This document shows positions 4,811 to 32,598 of a stretch of DNA of 54,102 nt, piece by piece (position 1 is the stretch's first letter; each line of letters starts with the position of its first letter). Position numbers and translations under genes: made by a program. The DNA lies in NCBI GenBank assembly GCA_011089965.1, contig JAANAU010000023.1, forward strand, positions 1-54,102. The letters run 5' to 3'. This stretch comes from Magnetococcales bacterium (lineage in GTDB: Bacteria > Pseudomonadota > Magnetococcia > Magnetococcales > Magnetaquicoccaceae). The notes below the pieces were generated by a model. The model ran no database searches, was not told the DNA's origin, and saw only the letters and a program-made list of their open reading frames with translations.

Positions 4811-6151
4811 TCAGGAATGCTCCGCATGGGTGGTGACCTGGACGGTCAGTTCTCCCTGGGCCAGTCGGATCCGCAAACGGGTGCCGGGGGGATAACGGCG
4901 GGCATCCCGGACCAGAGTACCCTGTTCATCCTGGACCAGTGCATAGCCGCGCGTCAATACCTCAAGCGGCGAAATGGCGGTCAAACGGGCCTGCAACAGT
5001 CGGACTGTTTCCCGGTGGTATTGGATTTGCCGGTTGATCTGGTGGAGCAGACGGTTGTGCAGGCGGTCGAGACGGGCTGTGCGCACTGCCAGAGGATGCC
5101 CTTCCGCCCATCCGGTCAGTCGGGTGGTTTGATGTCGTGTGGCATGACGGTGACGGTTGACAACCCCTTTCATGGCCATGAGCAGTCGTATTTGCAACTC
5201 ATCGCACCGTTGCCGGGTCTGTTCGATCCGGCGGCGGGGGTGGATCAGGCGGCTGCGTGTCAGTTTGAGCTGTTCTTGTTTGGTGCGCAGCCGGGTGGTC
5301 ATGGCAGTGCGCAGGCGCTGTTGTCCTCCCTGCACGCGGGCTGTGAGGGTGTTCCACTCCGGCATGGCCATTTCGGCGGCAGCAGACGGGGTGGAGGCAC
5401 GCGCGTCTGCGGCCAGATCCGCCAACGTGACATCGATTTCGTGTCCGACTGCCGAGATGACCGGAATGGGTGAGGCGGCAATGGCACGGATCACCCGTTC
5501 GCTGTTGAAGGCTGCCAGATCATCCGCCGAGCCACCGCCCCGTCCACACAGGATCACTTCCGCACGACCATCCCGGGCCAGACGGAACAAGGCGCGGGCA
5601 ATCTCTTCCGGAGCCTCTTCTCCCTGGACGCGCGCAGGTGCCAGAATCAGATGATATCCGGGAAAACGACGGTCCAACGTGCGGATGATGTCATGGATGG
5701 CAGCACCCGTTGGGGAGGTGACCACTCCGATGGCCCGGGGCAACAAGGGCAGGGGACGTTTCCGTTCCGGAGCGAACAGACCTTCGGCGCTCAGTCGGGC
5801 ATGCAGGGCAAGCCATTTTTCCCGTTCGCTGCCTGCACCTGCTGGCCGCACCCCTTCCACCACCAGTTGGTACTCTCCGCGCGGGGCATACACCGTGATT
5901 CGACCCGTCACAATCACCCCATCCCCGGAACGGGGCAAGGTCGGGATGCGGGTGCGCGTGGCTTTCCAGATCACGGCACGGATGCGCGCCTGGGCATCGG
6001 CCAGGGTGAAGTAGATGTGGCCGGATGGGGCCATTTTGTAATCCACGACCTCTCCTTGCACCTGGAGATAGGGATAACCGTTTTCCAACAGTTCCCGGAT
6101 CTCCTCGGTAAGCTGGGAGACGCTCAAACAACCGATTGAGTCTTTTATCAT
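4811..6151 (-). CDS. xseA: Exodeoxyribonuclease VII large subunit
   Basis: 446 residues. The N-terminal OB fold (residues about 10-105: LSVSQLTEEIRELLE, YPYLQVQGEV, ATRTRIP) is followed by the catalytic domain with VVTSPTGAAIHDI, the GRGGGSADDLAAFN motif and SAVGHEIDVTLADLAADARASTPSAAAE in pieces. A long basic coiled-coil region comes next. It degrades ssDNA together with XseB. It starts 2 bp after the stop of the AAA ATPase gene and ends directly at the M23 peptidase start, so it is clearly within a compact transcript. Confidence 0.97.
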   Translation of the reverse strand: MIKDSIGCLSVSQLTEEIRELLENGYPYLQVQGEVVDYKMAPSGHIYFTLADAQARIRAVIWKATRTRIPTLPRSGDGVIVTGRITVYAPRGEYQLVVEGVRPAGAGSEREKWLALHARLSAEGLFAPERKRPLPLLPRAIGVVTSPTGAAIHDIIRTLDRRFPGYHLILAPARVQGEEAPEEIARALFRLARDGRAEVILCGRGGGSADDLAAFNSERVIRAIAASPIPVISAVGHEIDVTLADLAADARASTPSAAAEMAMPEWNTLTARVQGGQQRLRTAMTTRLRTKQEQLKLTRSRLIHPRRRIEQTRQRCDELQIRLLMAMKGVVNRHRHATRHQTTRLTGWAEGHPLAVRTARLDRLHNRLLHQINRQIQYHRETVRLLQARLTAISPLEVLTRGYALVQDEQGTLVRDARRYPPGTRLRIRLAQGELTVQVTTHAEHS

Positions 6152-6152
6152 T

Positions 6153-7190
6153 TCAACGCATCTCGGTTTGGGTCTCCAGGGCGTGAGACAGGCCCTTCAG
6201 GGAGTAGTGAATCGCCTGGGCACCGGCTTCCGGATCCGGATCCAGTCGAAAAAAAGCACCGGCATTGGGAGTTTCTTTCCAGGCATCGTGAAAGCCCAAA
6301 ATGCAATCCTTGCTGTGCGTGGTGGCAAAGAGCTGAATATCAAGCTGGTTGGCCAGATGAAACAGAATTCGCCATAACTGATAATGTACGGTCCAGTGCA
6401 GTCCGTTTTCCATCTCGTCCAGGAGTACCACTCCGGCATCGGCATTGACCATGGCCAGAATGATCGGCAACAGGCGATTGATGCCGGAGCCGAGAGTGCT
6501 CAGGGATGTGCGTATCTGGTTCAGAGTGACAATGGCCATACGGTGTTGGTGCTCACCATTGGGACCGATGAATGCCAGGCGGGTAATCTTGGGGTAGAGA
6601 ATGTTCAGTGCCTCGATTACCCACTCTTCCCGCGTGGTCAGTTGAATCCGATCCCACAAATGATTGATCTGGGCATGGTTCAAACCGCCTGGTCGGATAT
6701 ATTGGATCCTGGTCATGGCCATCGATGTTGGCCAAAGGGTGTTGGATGGGGCTGGAAGAGGTGCGGGGGCGAGTATCTGGACGATGCCGTTGATATCACA
6801 GACAAGGCTGGGATTGGTGCCCTCTTCTTTTTTGGCATCATCCGCCAGATAGATCCGCAGGCGGTCGTGGTCCGTAAAATTGCCGATCTGGATGGACTCG
6901 TGAGGGCCTGATGGGAGTTTTCCATCCTTGAAAAGGGTATGTAACGGGAGGGTTTTATCTTCAACCGTATGGATTGGAGAGGGATGGATCAGGTTTGACA
7001 GATCATTCTGCCGGTCGATCAGTTCCAGCAGGATGCGTGGGTCGGCTCTTCCATAATAGATGTACAAGGCGTCCAGCAGACAACTTTTTCCGCTGCCATT
7101 TTTTCCGGTAATGAGATTGACCCTGCCCAATCGTTTGATCCGGAGTTCGCGGAACAGTCGAAAGTTGGCAATGAACAGGGAGTGCAGCAT
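6153..7190 (-). CDS. AAA ATPase of the OLD/RecF-like (AAA_15/21) type
   Basis: 345 residues. Walker A is GKNGSGKSCLLDAL near residue 30 after the usual FRLFRELRIKRLGRVNLITG start. An ABC-like signature region TLGSGINRLLPIIL is followed by Walker B VVLLDEMENGLH and the switch histidine in ATTHSKD. The fold matches ATPases found alone or with nucleases in defence and repair. No TOPRIM domain is seen at the C-terminus. It abuts both the acetolactate synthase-like gene upstream and xseA downstream (1-2 bp). The position next to exonuclease VII hints at a DNA role, but that is inference. Confidence 0.85.
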   Translation of the reverse strand: MLHSLFIANFRLFRELRIKRLGRVNLITGKNGSGKSCLLDALYIYYGRADPRILLELIDRQNDLSNLIHPSPIHTVEDKTLPLHTLFKDGKLPSGPHESIQIGNFTDHDRLRIYLADDAKKEEGTNPSLVCDINGIVQILAPAPLPAPSNTLWPTSMAMTRIQYIRPGGLNHAQINHLWDRIQLTTREEWVIEALNILYPKITRLAFIGPNGEHQHRMAIVTLNQIRTSLSTLGSGINRLLPIILAMVNADAGVVLLDEMENGLHWTVHYQLWRILFHLANQLDIQLFATTHSKDCILGFHDAWKETPNAGAFFRLDPDPEAGAQAIHYSLKGLSHALETQTEMR

Positions 7191-7191
7191 G

Positions 7192-8883
7192 TTACTCCAC
7201 CATGGGCAACAAACAGGTTTTGGCTTGCAGTTCTTCGGTCAGAACGCGGACATTTTCCGAGTAGTCCACTGGAATGTCGATCAGATGCACACCTCCCAAT
7301 CCCAGACATTTGGTCAGAAGTGGACGCAGTTCATCGGCACGGGTGACGCGGTGACCTTCGGCTCCGTAACTCTGTGCGTAGCGGACAAAGTCCGGATTGC
7401 CAAATTTCAGCCCATAATCCGGCAACCCCATGCTTTCTTGTTTCCAGCGGATCATCCCATAGGCATCATCGCGCAAGATCAGGATCACCAGATCCATGTC
7501 CAAACGCACGGCAGTCTCCAGCTCCTGGGAGTTCATCAGGAAACCGCCATCTCCGCAGACCGCCACCACCTGGCGTTCCGGATGGACCATTTTGGCCGCA
7601 ATGGCCGAAGGCAGACCTGTACCCATGCTGGCCAGGGCATTGTCGAGCAGGACGGTGTTTTGTTGACAGGCCGGATAGTTGCGGGCAATCCAGAGTTTGT
7701 ACATGCCGTTGTCGAGTGCCAGAATGCCGTTGTCTGGCATCACCTGCCGCAGATCGCTCACCACCCTTTGCGGCAGCAGCGGGAAATCCAGGGCATCAGC
7801 CCGGTCGAGCACATGGCGGGCATGGTCCTCACCCACCTGGTGAAAATAGGAGAAATCCCAATGGGGGGATGGGGTCAACAACCGGGTCAAGGCTTCGATA
7901 CCACGGGCGATGTCGCCGATCACCTCCAGTTCCGGGAAGTAGACATCATCGATCTGGGCCGGAGTGAAGTTGATGTGGATCACGGCGGCAGAGCTGCCGT
8001 GTCCCATGATGGCCGGGGGTTTTTCGGTGACATCGTGACCAATGGCAATGATCAGATCGGCCCGGTCAATGGCGCAGTGGAGATAATCGCCCTCGCTCAA
8101 GGCGGCGGTGCCCAGGTAACCGGGGCGGCGTTCATCGATGACCCCTTTGCCCATCTGGGTCGAGACAAAGGGAATGCCGGTTTTGTCCACAAAGGCGGTG
8201 AGTGTGGCAGAGACCTGCTTGCGGTTGGCTCCGGCAGCAACCAGCAACAAAGGTCGTGTGGCCTGCATGATTCGTTCGGCAGCGGCCAGCACAGCCTGGG
8301 GATCCGGGGCAGCGCGCTGGGTGGGAATGCTGCGCAGCGGTTTGGCATCGGTATATTCCCGGGCAATATCTTCGGGCAGCTCCAGATGGGTGGCACCCGG
8401 GCGCTCCTCTTCGGCCCGTTTGAACGCCTCGCGTACCAGGGAGGGGATTTTCTCTGCCGACGGGATCTGTTCTGCCATTTTGGTGATCGGACGCATGGTC
8501 CCCACCACGTCGATGATCTGAAAGCGGCCCTGTTTGCTTTTTTTGATCGGTTTTTGGCCGGTGATGGCCACCAGTGGCAAGCCGCCCAGCTGGGCATAGG
8601 CAATGCCGGTGATCAGATTGGTGGCTCCGGGTCCGAGTGTGGAGAGTACCACGCCCGGTTTTCCGGTCAGGCGTCCAAAGGTGGCGGCCATGAAGGCCGC
8701 AGCCTGTTCGTGGCGCGTCAACACCAGCTCAATCGAGGAGGTGCGCAACGCTTCCAGCAGATCGAGATTCTCTTCGCCCGGCACGCCAAAGATCCGTTCC
8801 ACTCCTTCGGCCTCCAGACACCAGACAAACAGATCCGCAGCCTTGATGGCACCGTTGGCATAAGGTTCAATGGTTTCTGACAT
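7192..8883 (-). CDS. Acetolactate synthase-like ThDP enzyme (large subunit type)
   Basis: 563 residues. The N-terminal ThDP domain has the catalytic Glu in LTRHEQAAAFMA. GPGATNLITGIA and the central domain follow, and the C-terminal ThDP-binding motif begins GDGGFLMNSQ. That motif normally ends in NN; here it ends RDDAYGMIRWKQ. Nearest to the acetolactate synthase (IlvB/AlsS) group, which joins two pyruvates to make acetolactate. No regulatory subunit (ilvH) or other branched-chain gene is nearby, so a catabolic or different decarboxylase role cannot be excluded. A clear ribosome binding site (AAGGAG) precedes ATG 8883. Confidence 0.82.
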   Translation of the reverse strand: MSETIEPYANGAIKAADLFVWCLEAEGVERIFGVPGEENLDLLEALRTSSIELVLTRHEQAAAFMAATFGRLTGKPGVVLSTLGPGATNLITGIAYAQLGGLPLVAITGQKPIKKSKQGRFQIIDVVGTMRPITKMAEQIPSAEKIPSLVREAFKRAEEERPGATHLELPEDIAREYTDAKPLRSIPTQRAAPDPQAVLAAAERIMQATRPLLLVAAGANRKQVSATLTAFVDKTGIPFVSTQMGKGVIDERRPGYLGTAALSEGDYLHCAIDRADLIIAIGHDVTEKPPAIMGHGSSAAVIHINFTPAQIDDVYFPELEVIGDIARGIEALTRLLTPSPHWDFSYFHQVGEDHARHVLDRADALDFPLLPQRVVSDLRQVMPDNGILALDNGMYKLWIARNYPACQQNTVLLDNALASMGTGLPSAIAAKMVHPERQVVAVCGDGGFLMNSQELETAVRLDMDLVILILRDDAYGMIRWKQESMGLPDYGLKFGNPDFVRYAQSYGAEGHRVTRADELRPLLTKCLGLGGVHLIDIPVDYSENVRVLTEELQAKTCLLPMVE

Positions 8884-8907
8884 GGGAGTTCTCCTTTTGT
8901 CCGGTCA

Positions 8908-10629
8908 TCATCCGACCGGAAAGGTGGTGCCGAGAATGGTTTCAAAGGTGGCGGCATTGACCGGTTTGTGAAACAGATAGCCTTGACCCATCTGACAGCC
9001 GCGAGTACGCAGAAAATCGGCCTGACTGAGCGATTCGATCCCTTCGCCGATCACCTTGCGATTCATGGCCTGGGCCAGCGACAGGATGGCCTGGACCAGT
9101 ACGGCGCTCTCCGAGTCCACGGCAATGTCCGGGATGAAGGTGCGGTCGATCTTGATGCCATTGACCGGCAGACGTTTCAAAACGCTCAACGAGGAGTAGC
9201 CGGTGCCAAAGTCGTCCAGCCACAGGTTGACCCCCTGGCGGCTCAGGTGGTGGAGCATGTCCATGGCCTTGCCTTCATCTTCGGAGAGGATGTTTTCCGT
9301 AATCTCCAGAATGAGGGCCGTAGGTGGCAATCCGGTGGCGCGCAGGATGTCCGGGATTTTGTCATCGGTGGAGAGTTCGCGGCAGCGGGTGCAGGAGATG
9401 TTGACCGAAATGACGAAATCGGCGCTGTCCGGACGTTGACGCCACTGTTGTGCCTGTGCGCAGGCAGTCTGGATGGTCCAGGCCGTGATCTGGGCGATCA
9501 TGCCGATCTCTTCGGCCAGGCGTACGAAGGTGGCAGGTGAGACATTGCCGCGTTTCGGGTGTTCCCAACGCAGAAAGCTCTCGGCACCGATCAACCGGCC
9601 TGAAGCCAGATCAACGATGGGTTGATAGTGAACCACCAACTCGCCCCGTTCCAGGGCATAGTGGAGATCCTTTTCCAGGGCCATGCGCTCTTCGGCTTCG
9701 GCATGCATGTCCGGAGTGAAGAAGCGGTAGGCGTTGCGACCATCACTTTTGGCCCGATACATGGCCGTATCGGCATTCTTGAGCAGGCTGTCCAGATCAT
9801 CGGCATCATCGGGACAGACCGTCACTCCGACCGAACCGGAGATGAACGCCTCCTGTCCCATCAGGACAAAGGGTTTGATCAACTGGGAGAGGATTTCGGC
9901 AGCCACACGTTCGGCATAAGGGCCGTGGGCCATGTCGGGAAGAATCACGGTGAACTCGTCGCCGCCCAGTCGGGCCACGGTATCCGATTTGCGTACGCAC
10001 GACAGGAGTCGTTTGGAGGTCTGGCGCAGCAGTTCGTCGCCGGCGGCATGGCCCATGGTATCGTTGACCCACTTGAAGCGGTCCAGATCGATGAACATCA
10101 AGGCCACACGGCTGTGCGAGCGTTTGGCGCGGATCAACTCCCGGTTGAGACGGTCCAGAAACAGGCTGCGGTTGGGCAGTCCGGTCAGGGTGTCGTAGTT
10201 GGCCTGGCGTCGCATCTCCTCTTCGCCCCGTTTGACCTGGGTGATGTCCCGCAAGGTCGACAGCAGTGCCGGTTCCCCCTGGAACATGGTCCAACCCGTG
10301 GCAATATCCACGATTCCCTGACGGTGGTCGCACCGGGTCAGCTCCATTTCAGCGGTCCAGCGTCCCGGTGTCATCGGGGGCTGGTCGTCGATGGACTGGA
10401 GTTGGCGATTCCAGGCATCGTTGTTGAAAAAGCCGCGCAATTGGGTTCCGTGCAACTCTTCTGCCTGACCCATGCCAAGGATGACGGCCGCCAGACGATT
10501 GGCCAACAGAATGGTGCCGTTGCGATGCAACAAGATTCCATCCGGAAGATTGGCCATCAGGAGTTGCAAATCCTCCAGGGCGATCTGACTGGTGGTGACG
10601 GAGGAGGTTACGGGTTCTGAATTGTCCAT
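8908..10629 (-). CDS. PAS-GGDEF-EAL cyclic-di-GMP enzyme
   Basis: 573 residues, no membrane segment, so probably cytoplasmic. A PAS-like domain (about 15-125) precedes GGDEF with intact RLGGDEF and the product-inhibition site RKSD ahead of it. The EAL domain follows: YQPIVDL, then ESF in place of EAL (the essential Glu is kept), VNIS, LEITEN, DDFGTGYSSL, KIDRTFI and IGEGIES. Known residues for both synthesis and hydrolysis of cyclic-di-GMP are present, so it may be bifunctional; direction in vivo is unknown. It lies 24 bp upstream of the acetolactate synthase-like gene and is probably first in the long minus-strand run. Confidence 0.93.
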   Translation of the reverse strand: MDNSEPVTSSVTTSQIALEDLQLLMANLPDGILLHRNGTILLANRLAAVILGMGQAEELHGTQLRGFFNNDAWNRQLQSIDDQPPMTPGRWTAEMELTRCDHRQGIVDIATGWTMFQGEPALLSTLRDITQVKRGEEEMRRQANYDTLTGLPNRSLFLDRLNRELIRAKRSHSRVALMFIDLDRFKWVNDTMGHAAGDELLRQTSKRLLSCVRKSDTVARLGGDEFTVILPDMAHGPYAERVAAEILSQLIKPFVLMGQEAFISGSVGVTVCPDDADDLDSLLKNADTAMYRAKSDGRNAYRFFTPDMHAEAEERMALEKDLHYALERGELVVHYQPIVDLASGRLIGAESFLRWEHPKRGNVSPATFVRLAEEIGMIAQITAWTIQTACAQAQQWRQRPDSADFVISVNISCTRCRELSTDDKIPDILRATGLPPTALILEITENILSEDEGKAMDMLHHLSRQGVNLWLDDFGTGYSSLSVLKRLPVNGIKIDRTFIPDIAVDSESAVLVQAILSLAQAMNRKVIGEGIESLSQADFLRTRGCQMGQGYLFHKPVNAATFETILGTTFPVG

Positions 10630-24587: not shown

Positions 24588-25946
24588 ATGATCCCATCCT
24601 TTCCTAACGCTTTTGCGCCTTTTATCCGCAGCCTGTTGGACGATGTCAATCGTCTGATCGGGCCGATTCATCTTGTGGGCGAGGCACCCATCTGCGGTCT
24701 TCTGGGCAAACCTTTGCCCAACACCCTGGAACTGCTCGTGGCCCGTCCCTTGACCGAATGTCGCAAGCGGCTGTTGCGCGGCGATCATCCGGATGCCGTC
24801 ATGGGACACAAGCATAACAGCCTGTTGCTTCCGATCAAAGAGTGGAACCATCCCAAGGTGCTGGATATCGGTTCTTTCCGGAACCGACCCAACCATCTGG
24901 CCACCTTGGAAGAGGATCTTTTGCACCGGGATGTCACGGTCAATGCCATGGCCTATACCTGGCCCCATGGTCCGCTGATCGATCCTTTTCATGGGCGTCA
25001 CGATCTGCTGAATGGGGAGATCCGACTGGTCAATGGCGAAGAGACCCTGCGGCTGAATCCTCTGCGCGCCCTGATCTTTTTTCGGTTTGCCATTCAGTTG
25101 AACCGTCCCATGCATGCCGACGATCTGGATCTGGCCATGCAAACCCCTTTGGATGCGGTTCCTCAAGAACTGGTTCGTGCCGAGTTGGATCGAATTCTCT
25201 CTTTGCCGCTTGCGGATGAAGAGACCCAGAACCATCTGCGCATTCTGTTCGCCTCGCCTCTGGTCGATCCGATCCTGCCTCACCTGGCGGCCTTGAAACA
25301 TATGGGCGCAGGTCCAAGCGGTGAAGATACCTGGAAACAGATTCTCGATACCACTCTGGCCATTTCGGCTCCGGCAGATGGCGAGGAGATCTCTCTGTTG
25401 GATCTGCGTTGGGCCATTTTGCTGGGCGGTTTTGGTTTGTCCAAGAGCACATCGCAGGATCTCATGGAGAGCAGCCTGGGACTGGTCAACCGGCGACTGG
25501 ATGCTTTGGAGTTTTCCAAACGCCGTGCCCGCCGCATCCTCAATCTGCTGCGCAACCTGAACAGCACCATCAATCCGACCGACCGGCAACTGAAACGTTA
25601 TCTTCAGGATCACATCCCCATGGAAGGGGTGTTCCGTTTGATCCAGGCCATCACCACGGCCAATCCGCACCTGCCCGAAGAGGCGCGCATCCATGAAGAG
25701 TTGAAATTCCAGGAGATTCGTACCCGCTGTCGCAACCTGAGACAGGCTGAACATCGGGTACGGGCCACGGATCTGGCGTTGTCGGGCGGCGAGATTCTCG
25801 ATATCGTCCGTCTTGCGCCCGGTCCCTGGCTGGGGGAGATGCAGCATAAACTGGTGGACCTGGTGAGCCAGGAACCCCACCGCAACAACAAAAACGAATT
25901 GCGCAACTACGTACGCAACTGGATCGCCCAGCAACGCGAGCTATGA
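24588..25946 (+). CDS. CCA-adding/poly(A) polymerase homologue with degenerate active site
   Basis: 452 residues from ATG 24588 (AAGG upstream). The class II nucleotidyltransferase frame is clear: RDVTVNAMAY (114-123), DPFHGRHDLLNGEIR (132-146) and NPLRALIFFRFA (157-168), then the helical body. The catalytic start is not. Where active enzymes have LVGGAVRD-x-LLG and a DxD, this protein has LVGEAPICGLLG (29-40) and TLEL (46-49), so the GG/RD signature and the first metal-binding Asp are lost. It is full length and has its own promoter, so probably expressed with a non-catalytic or altered role. Its end overlaps the histidine kinase end by 6 bp. Confidence 0.8.
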   Translation: MIPSFPNAFAPFIRSLLDDVNRLIGPIHLVGEAPICGLLGKPLPNTLELLVARPLTECRKRLLRGDHPDAVMGHKHNSLLLPIKEWNHPKVLDIGSFRNRPNHLATLEEDLLHRDVTVNAMAYTWPHGPLIDPFHGRHDLLNGEIRLVNGEETLRLNPLRALIFFRFAIQLNRPMHADDLDLAMQTPLDAVPQELVRAELDRILSLPLADEETQNHLRILFASPLVDPILPHLAALKHMGAGPSGEDTWKQILDTTLAISAPADGEEISLLDLRWAILLGGFGLSKSTSQDLMESSLGLVNRRLDALEFSKRRARRILNLLRNLNSTINPTDRQLKRYLQDHIPMEGVFRLIQAITTANPHLPEEARIHEELKFQEIRTRCRNLRQAEHRVRATDLALSGGEILDIVRLAPGPWLGEMQHKLVDLVSQEPHRNNKNELRNYVRNWIAQQREL

Positions 25947-28343
25947 ATCAGATCGCAGAGCGCTTTCCAAATCCATCAGGGCCGTGCGGGCCGTCACAAA
26001 ATCAAACCGATCCAGGGCACTGCTCACCGCCTCGATGCTTTTTGTGGGGAGGATGGGGTCCAGGACCGGACGCAACCGTTCCCACCCCTTCAAGGCAATG
26101 AAATCCTGATTCTGGATCAGCTCTGCCAGCTCCCGCACCTGTCCAAGCATCTGTTCCGGTTTCATGGAGACCGCATCGGCATTTGAAACCATCACGGTGG
26201 CCGCAGACCAGGCTCCAATCCCGCGCAGTACCTGCTGCAACTCCAGATCAAACCTCTCCAGCACTTCCGGCAAATGTGTATGATCTTTTGTGCGCAAGAG
26301 TTTTTCCAACTCCCGCGCTGTCATGAAGACACCTTCTGCACCAATATTGCCCGCCACCCCCTTGATCGTATGGACCCACTCTCCAGCCGCCTTCCATTGT
26401 GCAGTGGTCAACAGTGTTTTCAGATGGGGCATGGCATCCAGATAGTCCCGCCGGAATCGTATCATTAAATGATGCAACAACTCATGGTTGCCATCCATCC
26501 GCTCCAGGGCGGCCAGGGCATCGATACCCGGAATCGCCACCATCTCCTCAGTGACGAGACCGGAGTCAGCGGGTATGGATAACGATGCACCTGCCGACTC
26601 TGCCGGGTTGCGCCAGGCGATCCAGTGCAACAAGGCACGATACAGCTCTCTTTTGTCAATCGGCTTGGCCACATGATCGTTCATGCCAACAGCCAGACAC
26701 CGTTCCCGCTCTTCCAGCATGGCATGGGCCGTCATGGCCACAATGGGTACATCATTCCGCACGGGATGGGCGCGAATGCGACGTGCAGCCTCCAGACCAT
26801 CCATCACCGGCATTTGCAGATCCATCAATACCAGATCAAAAGGGGACTCCAGGACTTTGCGCACCCCTTGCAAGCCATCCTCGGCCACATCCACGATCAA
26901 CCCCACCCCACGCAACACTTCGCAAGCCACTTGACGATTGATGGCATTGTCTTCCACCAGCAACACCCGCGCGCCCCCGATTTTGCCGCGCACCTCTGTT
27001 GGGGTGATGGCCACACTCTTTTGGCGGGCTGGAATCGTTGACGAGGGCTGCTGTTCCAGATCGTGGCGGCGGGGCATCCGGATCGTAAAGAAAAAACAAC
27101 TGCCGATCTCTGGTGTGCTGGTCACCCAGATCGTACCACCCATCCGTTCCACCAATCGCTGGCAAATCGCCAAACCCAGTCCGGTCCCCCCAAACCGGCG
27201 CGTCATGGAGCCATCGGCTTGCACAAACGGTTGGAACAGTTTGGCGATCTGCTCTTCCGTCATTCCCATGCCGGTATCCTGCACCTGGAATTCCAAACTT
27301 ACGGTCGGATTCTCCTCCAGAATGCGCACACCTACGCCAATGGCTCCTGTCTGGGTGAATTTGATGGCATTGGAGAGCAGATTGCTCAATACCTGTTCGA
27401 GCCGCAAAGGATCCCCAACGAGAACGCAGGACCACTCCGGGGTGCGGGGCAGGTTCAACACCACACTTTTCTCCCCGATTTGACCGGTGAACAGGGTGGA
27501 CAACCGTTCCATGACCTCGCCCAAAGCAAACGGGATCGACTCCATCTCCAATTTCCCGGCATCCATTTTGGAAAGGTCCAGAATGTCGTTGATGAGCCGC
27601 AACAAGGAGTGGGAGGCATCGACCACCTTGCACAAATAGTCACGGGTATTGGGATGCAATTCGGTCTGCAATGCCAGATCGGTCAGACCGATCACGGCAT
27701 TCAGTGGAGTGCGCAGTTCATGGCTCATATTGGCCAGAAATCGGGATTTGGCGGTATTGGCCTCCTCAGCCGCCTGCCGTGCCTGCTCCAAGGCAGTCAT
27801 GGCCTGACGTACAATGCGGATTGAAAGCGTGCGCACCGGGAAGAAGATCGCGAATCCCAAGATTGAACTTGTAATGATAATAATAATAAATCCCAGCCAC
27901 AACTCCCTGATCGACCGGGTGATTTCGATCTTGCCAACCAGCTCTCCATAATCGAAGAGATCTTCTTGCAGAGTCCAATGGGGCCAGGGCAAAGGCTCCA
28001 CCAATTCACTGGCCATCATCAACTCCCCCTGTTTCCCCAGATGCAGCACGTGTACCGAGGTGTGTGGGGCATGAATGTCTTCCAGGATTCCGCGCAAACG
28101 AATCCCCTGCGCAGACCAGATCTCAGGGTTTTGACTGATAAACTTGTTGATGAAAATGGTATGGATGCGCAACTCGGAGTGGATCTGTTTCTCGACATGA
28201 TCCCAGCCCAGATAGCCGAAAATCAACGGCGGGAGCAAGACCACCAGACCGGCGATCACGCCCGAAGCGGTCGTGATCAGACGTGGCAGAGGTGTCCCCT
28301 GCTGGAAGGGATCAACGGGTTCGGTTGGAGATGCCAAGTGCAT
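25941..28343 (-). CDS. Hybrid histidine kinase (sensor-HisKA-HATPase-REC-HPt)
   Basis: 800 residues from ATG 28343; the frame is open 22 codons further upstream. Two membrane segments (about 22-46 and 150-170) flank a periplasmic sensor of about 100 residues. HisKA has the phosphorylated His in NMSHELRTPLNAVIG. The ATP-binding domain has SNAIKFT, DTGMGM and GGTGLGLAICQRL. REC has VLLVEDNAINRQ and the Asp in LVLMDLQMPVMDG. HPt has WVHTIKGVAGNIGA. A complete phosphorelay in one chain, so a separate response regulator should exist elsewhere. It overlaps the PstS-like gene upstream by 32 bp, suggesting that protein feeds it ligand. Confidence 0.93.
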   Translation of the reverse strand: MHLASPTEPVDPFQQGTPLPRLITTASGVIAGLVVLLPPLIFGYLGWDHVEKQIHSELRIHTIFINKFISQNPEIWSAQGIRLRGILEDIHAPHTSVHVLHLGKQGELMMASELVEPLPWPHWTLQEDLFDYGELVGKIEITRSIRELWLGFIIIIITSSILGFAIFFPVRTLSIRIVRQAMTALEQARQAAEEANTAKSRFLANMSHELRTPLNAVIGLTDLALQTELHPNTRDYLCKVVDASHSLLRLINDILDLSKMDAGKLEMESIPFALGEVMERLSTLFTGQIGEKSVVLNLPRTPEWSCVLVGDPLRLEQVLSNLLSNAIKFTQTGAIGVGVRILEENPTVSLEFQVQDTGMGMTEEQIAKLFQPFVQADGSMTRRFGGTGLGLAICQRLVERMGGTIWVTSTPEIGSCFFFTIRMPRRHDLEQQPSSTIPARQKSVAITPTEVRGKIGGARVLLVEDNAINRQVACEVLRGVGLIVDVAEDGLQGVRKVLESPFDLVLMDLQMPVMDGLEAARRIRAHPVRNDVPIVAMTAHAMLEERERCLAVGMNDHVAKPIDKRELYRALLHWIAWRNPAESAGASLSIPADSGLVTEEMVAIPGIDALAALERMDGNHELLHHLMIRFRRDYLDAMPHLKTLLTTAQWKAAGEWVHTIKGVAGNIGAEGVFMTARELEKLLRTKDHTHLPEVLERFDLELQQVLRGIGAWSAATVMVSNADAVSMKPEQMLGQVRELAELIQNQDFIALKGWERLRPVLDPILPTKSIEAVSSALDRFDFVTARTALMDLESALRSDS

Positions 28344-29142
28344 GTAACGCTGCCTGACCTTCCGGAGTTCCCAGATAATCGGCAATCCCCCGTACCGTTG
28401 CCGAGGCATCGGTACGCATGATCAGAAAAGCGGGTTTGATCAGGGGATAGCGGTTCTCCTCCATGGCTTTCACGGTCGGCTCCACCCCATCGAGGTGCAA
28501 GGGTTTGAGCCGGCGTTTTTCTGCGAGGATCAAGGTCAATGCCACCGATCCCACCCCCCCGGGCACCTTTTCCACCAGATCCACCAGATCGATATCGGTT
28601 TCCGCCAGACCGGAACCGGGCTGCCGGTTGGCATGGGCCAGGGTCAGAGCCTCTTTCATGGCTGGAGAGATGGCTGTCAGAATGGCGGTGTCGGCATCTG
28701 CGACAGGACGCAGAATCACCCGAATACGTCCGCCTTCTGCCCAATTTTTTTGACGACCGGCATAGATCTCTGTCATCTCCTGCATCGTTGTGTGCGATAC
28801 GGCGGCACCCTGATGAACGACAAAGACAAAGGGGGAATGACCCAAAGCGATCTGGATCAAACCCGCATCCTGCTCTTCCGGTTTCAGGGGGCGTCCGGTC
28901 AAGGCCAGATCCAACTGTTTGAGCGTCAGCGCCTTGATGGCGCCACTGCTCCCAATCGGGGGAAACCGGAAATCAAAACGGATCTCGGATTGGTTCTGAT
29001 AGTGTCTTTCAACAATTTGCTGAATGGCGCTCAGCATGGCTCCCGTGCCGTTGACCCGAATCGACTCTGCGTCCACCCGGGATGCTGACATCAGCCAAAC
29101 CAACACCATCCAGATCCAGAAGATGCGACGAGAAGCTGGCAT
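28312..29142 (-). CDS. PstS-like periplasmic substrate-binding protein
   Basis: 276 residues with a signal peptide (residues 1-25, ending SRVDA before ESIRVNGTG). The start VNGTGAMLSAIQQIVERH, then FPPIGSSGAIKAL and the alternating ALTGRPLKPEE and GHSPFVFVVHQGA strands, match the phosphate-binding (PBP-like) group. No pstC, pstA or pstB is present. It overlaps the hybrid kinase gene, and this pairing is known from sensor systems where a binding protein presents the ligand. It lies 3 bp after dcd on the same strand. Phosphate as ligand is inferred from family only. Confidence 0.85.
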   Translation of the reverse strand: MPASRRIFWIWMVLVWLMSASRVDAESIRVNGTGAMLSAIQQIVERHYQNQSEIRFDFRFPPIGSSGAIKALTLKQLDLALTGRPLKPEEQDAGLIQIALGHSPFVFVVHQGAAVSHTTMQEMTEIYAGRQKNWAEGGRIRVILRPVADADTAILTAISPAMKEALTLAHANRQPGSGLAETDIDLVDLVEKVPGGVGSVALTLILAEKRRLKPLHLDGVEPTVKAMEENRYPLIKPAFLIMRTDASATVRGIADYLGTPEGQAALHALGISNRTR

Positions 29143-29145
29143 GGA

Positions 29146-29754
29146 TCATTCTCCTTCGGTTCCAGTGAGCAGAGGCATGCCATCCTTTCCGAGGCGACTG
29201 GTCAATGGGGCTTGTTGCCCCTGATACTTGGCACCTGGTTTTTTGCCATAGGGGCGCAGGGCAGGGGACGAGAGGGTTTCAAACGAGATTGCCCCGATGC
29301 GCAATCCGGGGTGCAGGGCCAAGGGGAGACGACCGGCATTGAAAAATTCAAAGGTGATGTGACCATCCCAACCCGGATCAATGGAGTGGGCGGTGATGTG
29401 GACCATCAAACCGAGCCGCGCCAGACTGCTGCGACCATCCAGCCAGCCAACCAGGTCATCCGGTATGCCGATCCGTTCGCGCGTCATGCCCAGGGCAAAC
29501 TCACCGGGGTGGAGAAAAAACCGATCCTCGTCTTGCAGACGGATCTCCTCCATGCAGGCTTCCCCGACGGCATGAATACTCTGCGAGTCGGCCAGATCCA
29601 GATAGGGCACATGCACGTGCCGAAAGGTGCGAAACCGCCACCCCAGGCTCACATCCACGGAAAATGAACCAAAACAGTGATCCGGCGGCAAAGGATCGAT
29701 CACAATCCGACCCGCCTGGATGGCGGCCATGATCTCCCGATCAGACAAACGCAT
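29146..29754 (-). CDS. dcd: dCTP deaminase
   Basis: 202 residues from ATG 29754, with AAGGAG 7 bp upstream; a TTG 6 bp earlier is the alternative. It converts dCTP to dUTP, feeding dTMP synthesis. Highly similar to the enterobacterial enzyme: RLSDREI, SVDVSLGWRFRTFR, LHPGEFALGMT, LVGWLDGRSSLARLGLMVH with the catalytic Glu later in HITFEFFNAG, and YGKKPGAKYQGQQ at the nucleotide-binding C-terminus. Part of the compact minus-strand series with the thymidylate-synthase-like gene, which makes a shared nucleotide role likely. Confidence 0.97.
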   Translation of the reverse strand: MRLSDREIMAAIQAGRIVIDPLPPDHCFGSFSVDVSLGWRFRTFRHVHVPYLDLADSQSIHAVGEACMEEIRLQDEDRFFLHPGEFALGMTRERIGIPDDLVGWLDGRSSLARLGLMVHITAHSIDPGWDGHITFEFFNAGRLPLALHPGLRIGAISFETLSSPALRPYGKKPGAKYQGQQAPLTSRLGKDGMPLLTGTEGE

Positions 29755-29789
29755 CCGCAATCTCCTTGATCAAGATGATACGGGTGGGT

Positions 29790-30434
29790 TCAGGCCAGCA
29801 ACGTGGCAGGATTGGTGGATTTGCGCTGCTTCTGGATGCCATCGAAGACCGCGTTGAAATCCCGGAACAAGGCCTTGTATTGGGTTGGATCCCGATACTC
29901 TTTTTTGATGAATTCGTTCGGAAGCTCTTCCAGTTCCACCACGTCGTCCCATCCCTTTTTGAGAGCATAGGCATAATACGGATATTCATGGGGTACGTCC
30001 ACCGCCAATACGATATTGATCGGCACCCCAAGACGCATCGCCGTATAGACCCGGTGCATACCGTCGTTGATCAACGGGATGGTCCGACCATCCGGTTCCA
30101 GGGAGTGTTCCACGACCGGTGGCATCAATGGGATCGGTCCCTCTTCACCGTGCGGGGCGTCCGGATCTGCCAACCAGAAGAACAGTCCACCCTCCAGATT
30201 GAAGATGTCGATCCCTTCATGCCGGAATAGATGATACAAATCAAACAGACGTTGATGATCGGCGCGCAACACGTAGCGTTGCGCTGGATAGAGCGTGGCC
30301 GGATCGACCCGGCGTACCAGCTCCAGCCTGGCCCGGGCATAGATCAACGGTTGCCCGTGACCGCGCAATCGCGTGGTCGCGAAGCGCTGCAACAGTTCTG
30401 CTTCACCGATCTGTTCCATACGGGTAATCTTCAT
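29790..30434 (-). CDS. Unrecognised protein with ParB-like DGMHR motif
   Basis: 214 residues from ATG 30434; the frame is open much further upstream, but that part is antisense-like and overlaps the HAD gene. The most telling segment is IPLINDGMHRVYTAMRLG (119-135). DGxHR followed by a helix is the core of ParB/sulfiredoxin-type folds, which bind or hydrolyse nucleotides. The rest is not recognisable. No signal peptide. The start overlaps the HAD stop by 4 bp, so it is translationally coupled. Function open; a nucleotide-binding role is inferred from both motif and neighbours. Confidence 0.7.
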   Translation of the reverse strand: MKITRMEQIGEAELLQRFATTRLRGHGQPLIYARARLELVRRVDPATLYPAQRYVLRADHQRLFDLYHLFRHEGIDIFNLEGGLFFWLADPDAPHGEEGPIPLMPPVVEHSLEPDGRTIPLINDGMHRVYTAMRLGVPINIVLAVDVPHEYPYYAYALKKGWDDVVELEELPNEFIKKEYRDPTQYKALFRDFNAVFDGIQKQRKSTNPATLLA

Positions 30435-31123
30435 TTTGTGCTCCACAATGCCAGTAATCGTTCCACACGCAACGCCTCCATGGAGGCCAGGGTCAAATCC
30501 GGAGTGGGCTGCTGACGATTGAGGAGTGCCACCAGGTCGTCCCGCTCTTTTTCCGGTCGATGCAACAGCCAGACGCTTTTCATGCCCAGGTTGATGGCAG
30601 GCAGCATGTCCATGGCATAGGTATCCCCGATCATCACGGTCTGTTCCGGTGCCAGACCAGACAGGGTCAACGCCTGCCGATAGATCCCGGCATCCGGCTT
30701 GGACAGACCGGTCTGGCACGAAGCCACCACCGGAGCCTGGGCATACGGCCCGGGAAAGAGCCGGGCAAATCCCAACAAAAACGGGGTCCAGATATTGGTG
30801 ATGAAACCGTACCGAATGCCTTCTGCTTCCAACTGTACCAACAGATCCCTGGCGCCCGGCAAAGGGAAACAGGTTTCAATCTGTTGTTGCCAGAATCCTT
30901 GCACCACCTGCCGGGTCTGATCCGGGTTCAGATCATGGGTCTGGAGCAGTCGTTGCGTCAACTCTTCGGCAGAGCTTAACGGGGTGGTGAACAACCAGCT
31001 TTTCAAGGTCTCCTTGGCGTTCGGAGGCAAGCCCAGGGCGCGGATCAGCCAGGCTGAAGGTCCGATCTCCGGTCCGCCGATCATGGTGAAGCCAATATCG
31101 AGAAATACAAAGATTGACTTCAT
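30431..31123 (-). CDS. HAD family hydrolase
   Basis: 230 residues from ATG 31123, overlapping the thymidylate-synthase-like stop by 4 bp. HAD motifs in order: FLDIGFT with the nucleophile Asp9, FITNIWTP, the Lys in GLSKPDAGIY and the acidic GDTYAMDM. Position 11 is Gly instead of the usual second Asp, as in some HAD subfamilies with DIGN or DLGN. The helical cap (about 20-90) is of the haloacid dehalogenase subclass I. A phosphatase acting on a nucleotide or sugar phosphate is likely; the substrate is not readable. Confidence 0.88.
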   Translation of the reverse strand: MKSIFVFLDIGFTMIGGPEIGPSAWLIRALGLPPNAKETLKSWLFTTPLSSAEELTQRLLQTHDLNPDQTRQVVQGFWQQQIETCFPLPGARDLLVQLEAEGIRYGFITNIWTPFLLGFARLFPGPYAQAPVVASCQTGLSKPDAGIYRQALTLSGLAPEQTVMIGDTYAMDMLPAINLGMKSVWLLHRPEKERDDLVALLNRQQPTPDLTLASMEALRVERLLALWSTK

Positions 31124-32598
31124 GGTTCCCCCTTGCCCCGTTGCAGACTCTTGAGTCTGGCTTCGGCCCGTCCCAGCTCGCGTCCCAGATAGAGGGCATG
31201 GCCAATATCGGAGAGGGCGCAATCCAGCACAAGTTGGCGTTCCAGCTCCTCGGCGCTGCGTCCGGTGTAGCGATGCAACTGTTGTCCTTCAAAACGATGA
31301 TCCACCACGATCATGCCGTTCTCCCCATGGACCGAAATGATAAAATCCCCATGTGGATCGGGCTGGAAACGGTTCTCTGCCCGCAGCTCTGCATTGCGGA
31401 AATCATGGATGGCTCTGGCTTGATCCAGACCGCCGCCGCCCGGGTCGATGGTGATCGAATGGCTGATCAGGGTGAGTGGTCCAGGGGTCAATCCGCAGCC
31501 CGTGGCAATCAGTCGCTGGATGGCGATCAAGCCATGAACATTCATCAACCACGCCTTCAGGGCATTGTGGGTGCGAAACAGCGCCGTCAGGGTCAACACC
31601 TCCTCAAAACGGCGCACGAACAGAGAGACCAGGCACGGATGACCCGGCAGATCCGAAAGCAGATCCCGTCCCGTATCCCACAGCGCGACAAAGGCATGCC
31701 GGGAGTCGGGATCCCGGGTCAGCAGACGGACCATGCGCATCAGGGTATCCTGTTCGGTGGTCCCGAAATGGCCACGCAATCGATTGCCGTAACCATAGTG
31801 TTGATCCGGCGGCAGTGCAGCGGACAGAATGGCCTGTTGATAGCGTCGGAATGCCTCCGGATCAAAACCATGCTCTTGCAGAAGTGTGTCCGGCTCCTCT
31901 TGCGGCACTGTGATCGTGACTTGAACGTTTTGCAATTCGATGCGTTCACCCTTGGCCAGAGTCACCCGATGGCCAAAACGATAGAGCCGGTGAATCAACT
32001 CCTTCCATGCTGCCAGTGGCGAGGAGGCCCGGATGCGATGGCCGCGCGGATCCGAGGGCAACCGGGTCACCTCGAACCGGGCCAAAGGCACGGCACATCG
32101 TTCTGCTGTGACCGGTTCAGGTGCGGGCAGATCGGCAAAGAAGGCACGCAGCCGGTTTCCGGAGTCCGGATCTGCGGGTTTGCCCAGATCGAACAGACGC
32201 AGTCGTCCGGCAAAGGCCTCTGGCAACACCCCGCAATCGATTTTGTGATGGGTTCCCACGATCTGCCACACCTGCTGGCCAAGACACAGGGTCGGTTCCA
32301 GACCTTGCCCGAAGAAGTTCCACAAGGCAACACGGGATCCACCCAGATCCACTCCAAACAGAACCAGATGGCGGATCTGTGGATTATACAGCAAATTGCG
32401 CAGCATCTCGGGCAACCCTTCGCCGTACAGGGTGCCCAATACCGCCACCCGTGCCTGCTTTGGATCCAGTTCCACCCCGGCCCGGTGCAGATGCTCCTGG
32501 ACCACGGCAATCGGTGACCACAACGTGACCACCCCGACATCGCCCTGCGGGTTGATCACCGTCACCCGGTCCGGGTAATGCAACGGAATGAATTCCAT
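31120..32598 (-). CDS. MtrA-like/DUF4346 domain fused to thymidylate synthase-like domain
   Basis: 492 residues from ATG 32598 (AAGGA upstream). Residues about 1-160 resemble the DUF4346/MtrA corrinoid-binding-type domain: VVTLWSPIAVVQEHL, VAVLGTLYGEGLPEML, IRHLVLFGVDLGG. Residues about 265-480 follow the thymidylate synthase fold: YGNRLRG, DPDSRHAFVALWD, then HPCLVSLFV with the catalytic Cys at 322, and RTHNALKAWLMNV. The Asp normally in RSxD is Asn here (345), and the folate-site Asn is kept (353). It may methylate or hydroxymethylate a pyrimidine nucleotide with an unusual one-carbon donor. That reaction is inference; the fold assignment is firmer. First gene of the coupled series. Confidence 0.75.
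   Translation of the reverse strand: MEFIPLHYPDRVTVINPQGDVGVVTLWSPIAVVQEHLHRAGVELDPKQARVAVLGTLYGEGLPEMLRNLLYNPQIRHLVLFGVDLGGSRVALWNFFGQGLEPTLCLGQQVWQIVGTHHKIDCGVLPEAFAGRLRLFDLGKPADPDSGNRLRAFFADLPAPEPVTAERCAVPLARFEVTRLPSDPRGHRIRASSPLAAWKELIHRLYRFGHRVTLAKGERIELQNVQVTITVPQEEPDTLLQEHGFDPEAFRRYQQAILSAALPPDQHYGYGNRLRGHFGTTEQDTLMRMVRLLTRDPDSRHAFVALWDTGRDLLSDLPGHPCLVSLFVRRFEEVLTLTALFRTHNALKAWLMNVHGLIAIQRLIATGCGLTPGPLTLISHSITIDPGGGGLDQARAIHDFRNAELRAENRFQPDPHGDFIISVHGENGMIVVDHRFEGQQLHRYTGRSAEELERQLVLDCALSDIGHALYLGRELGRAEARLKSLQRGKGEP

Follow-up and report, generated by a model that had tools for sequence, protein, structure and literature searches.

Every cell needs deoxythymidine monophosphate (dTMP), and to our knowledge ThyA and ThyX are the only established synthases. 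The window analysed here, a stretch of 54,102 nucleotides from a Magnetococcales bacterium (contig JAANAU010000023.1 of assembly GCA_011089965.1, positions 1-54,102), carries four closely spaced genes on the minus strand at 29146-32598. They encode a fusion of MtrA-like, thymidylate synthase (TS)-fold and PterinBD-DUF4346 domains, a HAD-fold hydrolase-like protein, a ParB/Srx-fold protein of family PF24392 (ParB-CE), and a deoxycytidine triphosphate (dCTP) deaminase. The fusion is proposed to be the thymidylate synthase of the cell, replacing ThyX or ThyA non-orthologously and acting together with HAD and ParB-CE, a reading that we hold with a probability of about three in four. The dTMP synthase role taken by itself is likely, whereas its cooperation with the two partners is less certain.

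The distribution of the fusion is the first line of evidence. The initial annotation had read the block as an unusual route to dTMP or to a modified pyrimidine, and the window's own genome, which is 98.9% complete, has neither thyX (no PF02511 match) nor any other thyA, the fusion being the sole match to PF00303. The search for the fusion, PF00303, and PF02511 covered 60 relatives. The 48 genomes that belong to Magnetococcales contain the fusion in 25 cases, ThyX in 19, both in none, and canonical ThyA in none. The four genomes with neither fusion nor ThyX are 65-76% complete, and exactly one of the two is present in each of the 37 genomes with a completeness of at least 78%. Fisher's test of this exclusion gives p=8e-10, a value uncorrected for kinship. 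Genus g1 is split between ThyX (G001-G003) and the fusion (eight others), and the exchange is also seen within family f5. An artefact of incomplete assembly as the cause of the absent thyA was rejected, given the completeness of the window's genome and the persistence of the pattern in 37 genomes.

When 85,000 species genomes were scanned, 47 fusion loci were returned, placed in five phyla according to their record titles and distributed over Magnetococcales, Desulfobacterota (Desulfobacca, Desulfacinum, and Syntrophobacterales), Bacillota (Desulfovirgula and Desulfocucumis), Eremiobacterota and, with a single locus, Terriglobia (Acidobacteriota). Neither ThyX (0/23) nor canonical ThyA was found in the 23 fusion genomes outside Magnetococcales, and in 20 of them PF00303 matches nothing but the fusion. 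Since these 23 genomes were selected for bearing the fusion, the figure of 0/23 tests exclusion and not frequency. ThyX and the fusion thus share the same genomic role, each replacing the other without dihydrofolate reductase (DHFR), although no sequence match between them was detected. Additional standalone TS-like proteins of 257-268 aa are encoded in three fusion genomes (L152:391-1197, L153:4278-5051, and L154:4884-5663). No plasmid or GenBank-phage protein matched the fusion, and spread by these vehicles was rejected for want of such a match.

The ParB-CE protein (29790..30434, minus strand, as are all features of the window given below; 214 aa) follows the fusion across genomes. It is present in 24 of the 25 Magnetococcales fusion genomes, the single exception being 57% complete, in none of the 19 Magnetococcales genomes with ThyX, and in 22 of the 23 outside fusion genomes, mostly at a distance from the fusion locus. 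For a functional tie between ParB-CE and the fusion, unlinked co-occurrence is stronger evidence than an operon. Two diverged copies of the fusion occur in G036 (L040 and L052), each accompanied by a separate ParB-CE gene; neither has HAD nearby.

The fusion gene (31120..32598, 492 aa) was characterized by its domain matches and by an AlphaFold2 model with a pLDDT of 86.9. The TS-fold domain comprises residues about 187-405 (31384..32040), and modelled residues 190-400 match solved TS-fold enzymes with Z values of 20-24. PF00303 matches residues 267-378 just above its gathering score (E=1e-5, 24.9 vs 24.3 bits). The top family match is the methanogen TS family TIGR03283 (residues 189-383, E=4e-27), with a score below the curated cut-off (95 vs 174.6 bits); the best score among the members scanned, 127 bits, is likewise below it, and the match in L104 has E=8e-37. 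The fusion also differs from the methanogen enzymes by its added MtrA-like and DUF4346 domains, by its bacterial hosts without detected tetrahydromethanopterin (H4MPT) synthesis, and by its HAD and ParB-CE partners. ThyA is alike in fold (Z about 20), but only 100-130 residues can be aligned by sequence. The nearest solved folds, ranking above ThyA, are the CMP hydroxymethylase MilA and the phage dCMP hydroxylase AfhB (Z 22 and 24), which differ from the fusion as stand-alone enzymes with other substrates and 15-19% identity. The fusion is a member of the TS superfamily that lacks some of the features tested for ThyA, TIGR03283, and MtrA.

Five residues of the TS domain are invariant in 37 aligned orthologues: Cys322 (codon 31633..31635), Arg300, Arg342, Asn353 (codon 31540..31542), and His380. 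The equivalents of Cys146, the catalytic residue of Escherichia coli ThyA, and of its Arg126, Arg166, and Asn177 are kept in the alignment, Asn177 (here Asn353) being the residue that favours uracil over cytosine. Asp169 of the ThyA folate site, which touches the pterin, is replaced by Asn345 (codon 31564..31566) in all 37. Both Cys322 and Asn345 had been correctly singled out in the initial annotation, and neither varies among the 37 aligned orthologues. ThyA oxidizes tetrahydrofolate (THF) and hence needs DHFR. The DHFR family PF00186 is absent from all 25 Magnetococcales and from 19 of the 23 outside fusion genomes, that is, from 44 of 48 fusion genomes. It is also missing from every Magnetococcales genome searched (0/48, G000-G047), including those with ThyX, for which the absence is expected.

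These data bear on the alternative of an ordinary ThyA-type fusion, which is possible but doubtful. Methylene-THF would then provide both the carbon and the hydride, a reductase outside PF00186 would recycle dihydrofolate, and HAD and ParB-CE would have house-cleaning or regulatory tasks. This explanation is in line with the retention of the ThyA residues Cys, Arg, and Asn, and with the YjjG-type pyrimidine nucleotidases among the NCBIfam neighbours of HAD. Nevertheless, the uniform loss of Asp169, the lack of DHFR, and a co-occurrence of ParB-CE tighter than expected of a mere accessory argue against it.

The initial annotation had described ParB-CE as a ParB-like protein with a DGMHR motif that may bind a nucleotide, and its profile match to PF24392, its model, and its co-occurrence identify it as a genuine ParB/Srx-fold partner. 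The model is of high confidence (pLDDT 91), and all structural matches at a Z of at least 4.6 belong to the ParB/Srx superfamily (sulfiredoxin, SerK, SbnI, ParB, Noc, and relatives). The Z values are modest (5-6.5), but the folds listed at that level come from a single superfamily, and the match spans almost the whole of SerK. No real sequence match was found among solved structures, so that the likeness to the free serine kinases SerK and SbnI, to sulfiredoxin, and to ParB is one of fold alone. ParB-fold relatives variously bind CTP, ATP, or GTP (PMC12704722), which suggests that ParB-CE is probably a nucleoside triphosphate (NTP)-using protein; it may be a kinase, as its SerK-type assignment by fold match would imply. 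A survey of the ParB/Srx fold found in the literature does not mention PF24392. The nucleotide binding of its relatives, together with fold matches to both ParB/Noc and SerK/Srx, would also suit a non-catalytic switch that senses CTP, dCTP, or dTTP and regulates the synthase. This explanation is unlikely, as ParB-CE lacks the helix-turn-helix and dimer domains of ParB, and its co-occurrence over five phyla, mostly unlinked, exceeds the usual pattern of a regulator.

The HAD partner (30431..31123, 230 aa) was recognized by profile, motifs, and its neighbourhood across phyla. It keeps the nucleophile Asp and the S/T, Lys, and GDxxxxD motifs. Motif I, DIGFT in the window, reads DIGxT in 32/32 sequences from several phyla, with Gly at D+2 in place of the general-acid Asp of phosphatases. 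Ordinary nucleotide dephosphorylation is doubtful because this Asp is missing, and of the HAD phosphatase initially annotated, the HAD identity holds while the phosphatase label is put in doubt by motif I. Members of Magnetococcales, Terriglobia, Desulfobacterota, and Bacillota have the gene next to the fusion or ParB-CE; the order in Desulfovirgula is HAD, ParB-CE, fusion. Where ParB-CE has moved, HAD is found beside it (L167, L174, L175, L177, and L178). At L095:4388-6568, the fusion and HAD lie in one open frame, possibly encoding a four-domain protein.

An improbable alternative is that the TS domain forms 5-hydroxymethyl-deoxyuridine monophosphate (5-hydroxymethyl-dUMP) without THF oxidation, ParB-CE adds a phosphate to the hydroxymethyl group, and HAD with a further reductant yields dTMP. 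Such a route would account for the absence of DHFR, the kinase-like fold, and a HAD without general acid, and it agrees with MilA and AfhB being closer in fold than ThyA. However, the module has no reductase, and fold ranking is no proof of chemistry.

The remaining domains of the fusion are relevant to the carbon carrier. The N-terminal Rossmann-type domain (residues 1-175; 32074..32598) is homologous to MtrA, the corrinoid subunit of the H4MPT S-methyltransferase, with a profile match to MtrA 8q3v (E=6e-5) and a sub-threshold Pfam score (12 vs 25 bits). The PterinBD-DUF4346 domain (residues 414-485; 31144..31359; PF14251, E=4e-17) is present in 37/37 orthologues, and no solved structural relative of it was found. 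RFAP synthase, an enzyme of H4MPT synthesis, scored above its cut-off in 0/41 tested fusion genomes. H4MPT was rejected as the carbon carrier for this reason, and folate is the likely carrier because no gene for H4MPT synthesis was detected. The literature searched contained nothing on DUF4346 and nothing on a new TS type. The Pfam names PterinBD-DUF4346 and Parb-CE suggest that both domains have already been described by others, possibly in the same context.

The cobalt ligand of MtrA is His84 (PMC4915002), and its region aligns to a gap in the fusion. Corrinoid methyl transfer was rejected on this ground, and the corrinoid-dependent methylation of dUMP put forward in the initial annotation is probably wrong and very improbable, even though the N-terminal domain is a true MtrA relative and one phage cluster includes a cobalamin adenosyltransferase, which its B12-type ribonucleotide reductase explains. 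Equally remote is a version of its second option, a modified pyrimidine, in which the product would serve DNA or a natural product and dTMP would come from salvage: MilA and AfhB do produce modified pyrimidines, but the complementarity with ThyX is exact, most fusion genomes are without any other TS, and a modified DNA pyrimidine is unlikely because no other source of dTMP was found.

The arrangement of the genes was as initially annotated. The fusion and HAD genes overlap by 4 bp (ATGA), and so do the HAD and ParB-CE genes (ATGA); a gap of 35 bp separates ParB-CE from the dCTP deaminase gene, whose ATG is preceded by AAGGAG. The genes of the block neighbour each other in other genomes too. 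At the 25 fusion loci of Magnetococcales, stretches of up to 15 kb contain the fusion (25), ParB-CE (19), HAD (16), and dCTP deaminase (13), whereas the genes flanking the block in the window recur at no more than two. Chance synteny was ruled out because the flanking genes are unconserved while the block recurs, and chance co-location is excluded. The dCTP deaminase (29146..29754, 202 aa) was correctly identified from the start (TIGR02274, 198 bits vs a cut-off of 92.8). Its assumed place in the pathway is that of an accessory, presumably supplying the deoxyuridine nucleotide, as it is linked to the fusion in Magnetococcales only. It was rejected as an essential part of the module, being unlinked in other phyla and found beside ThyX at none of the seven loci examined. 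A PstS-like binding protein gene (28312-29142) starts 3 bp beyond the dCTP deaminase gene, and a hybrid sensor kinase gene (25941-28409) follows closely, both on the same strand; neither is conserved alongside the block.

Viral contigs also contain members of the module. On phage contig L155 (IMGVR_UViG_3300035670_000127, 6001-10383), which has a terminase, the fusion adjoins an RTPR-type (adenosylcobalamin) ribonucleotide reductase and the cobalamin adenosyltransferase. Viral thymidylate synthases typically neighbour genes of this kind. At L158:5863-8944, from a virus collection and with baseplate genes, ParB-CE, a cupin, and a divergent fusion are close together. ParB-CE is present with no fusion within 6 kb at L156:5986-6588 and L157:6001-6603; L156 also encodes a dCMP-deaminase-like protein, a phosphoribosyltransferase-domain protein, and a terminase.

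The unusual dTMP route is strongly supported by the mutual exclusion of fusion and ThyX, the absence of any other thyA or thyX, and the conserved neighbours. From the observed gene content, motifs, folds, and distribution we infer dTMP as the product and folate as the carrier, as well as the reductant and what the partners do. The TS-fold domain would hold dUMP covalently via Cys322 and would select uracil by means of Asn353. The one-carbon donor is most likely 5,10-methylene-THF, and the pterin site is probably built, wholly or in part, by the MtrA-like and DUF4346 domains. The replacement of Asp169 by Asn and the absence of DHFR suggest that THF is not the final hydride donor and that the reduction would need another source. 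ParB-CE probably acts as a SerK/SbnI-type enzyme that uses an NTP, and HAD may be an atypical handler of a phosphoryl or leaving group on the same intermediate or donor. In Magnetococcales, dCTP deaminase would feed dUTP/dUMP.

Several observations weigh against the proposed role of the fusion and its partners. The co-occurrence counts come from related, non-independent genomes. HAD is not beside the fusion or ParB-CE in G006 (a short contig), G021, G025, G036, and several Desulfobacterota, and no ParB-CE was found in G070, a metagenome-assembled genome of undetermined completeness. An additional short TS-like open reading frame related to TIGR03283 occurs in G068, G069, and G070 (3 of the 23 outside genomes). 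The L158 fusion has Arg at position 345 and Gln at position 380. There is no oxidoreductase within the module, and the role of DHFR may be filled by an enzyme outside PF00186.

Tentatively, the fusion could represent a third class of dTMP synthesis, spread over five or more bacterial phyla as well as phages. It would comprise a folate-using TS-fold enzyme whose hydride does not come from THF and which needs a kinase-like ParB-fold enzyme and a HAD without general acid, by which a phosphorylated intermediate might be activated or resolved. If true, this third system would explain how magnetotactic, sulfate-reducing, and syntrophic bacteria manage without thyA and thyX, and mostly without DHFR, and a biochemical role would be gained for DUF4346 as well as for a ParB-fold family.

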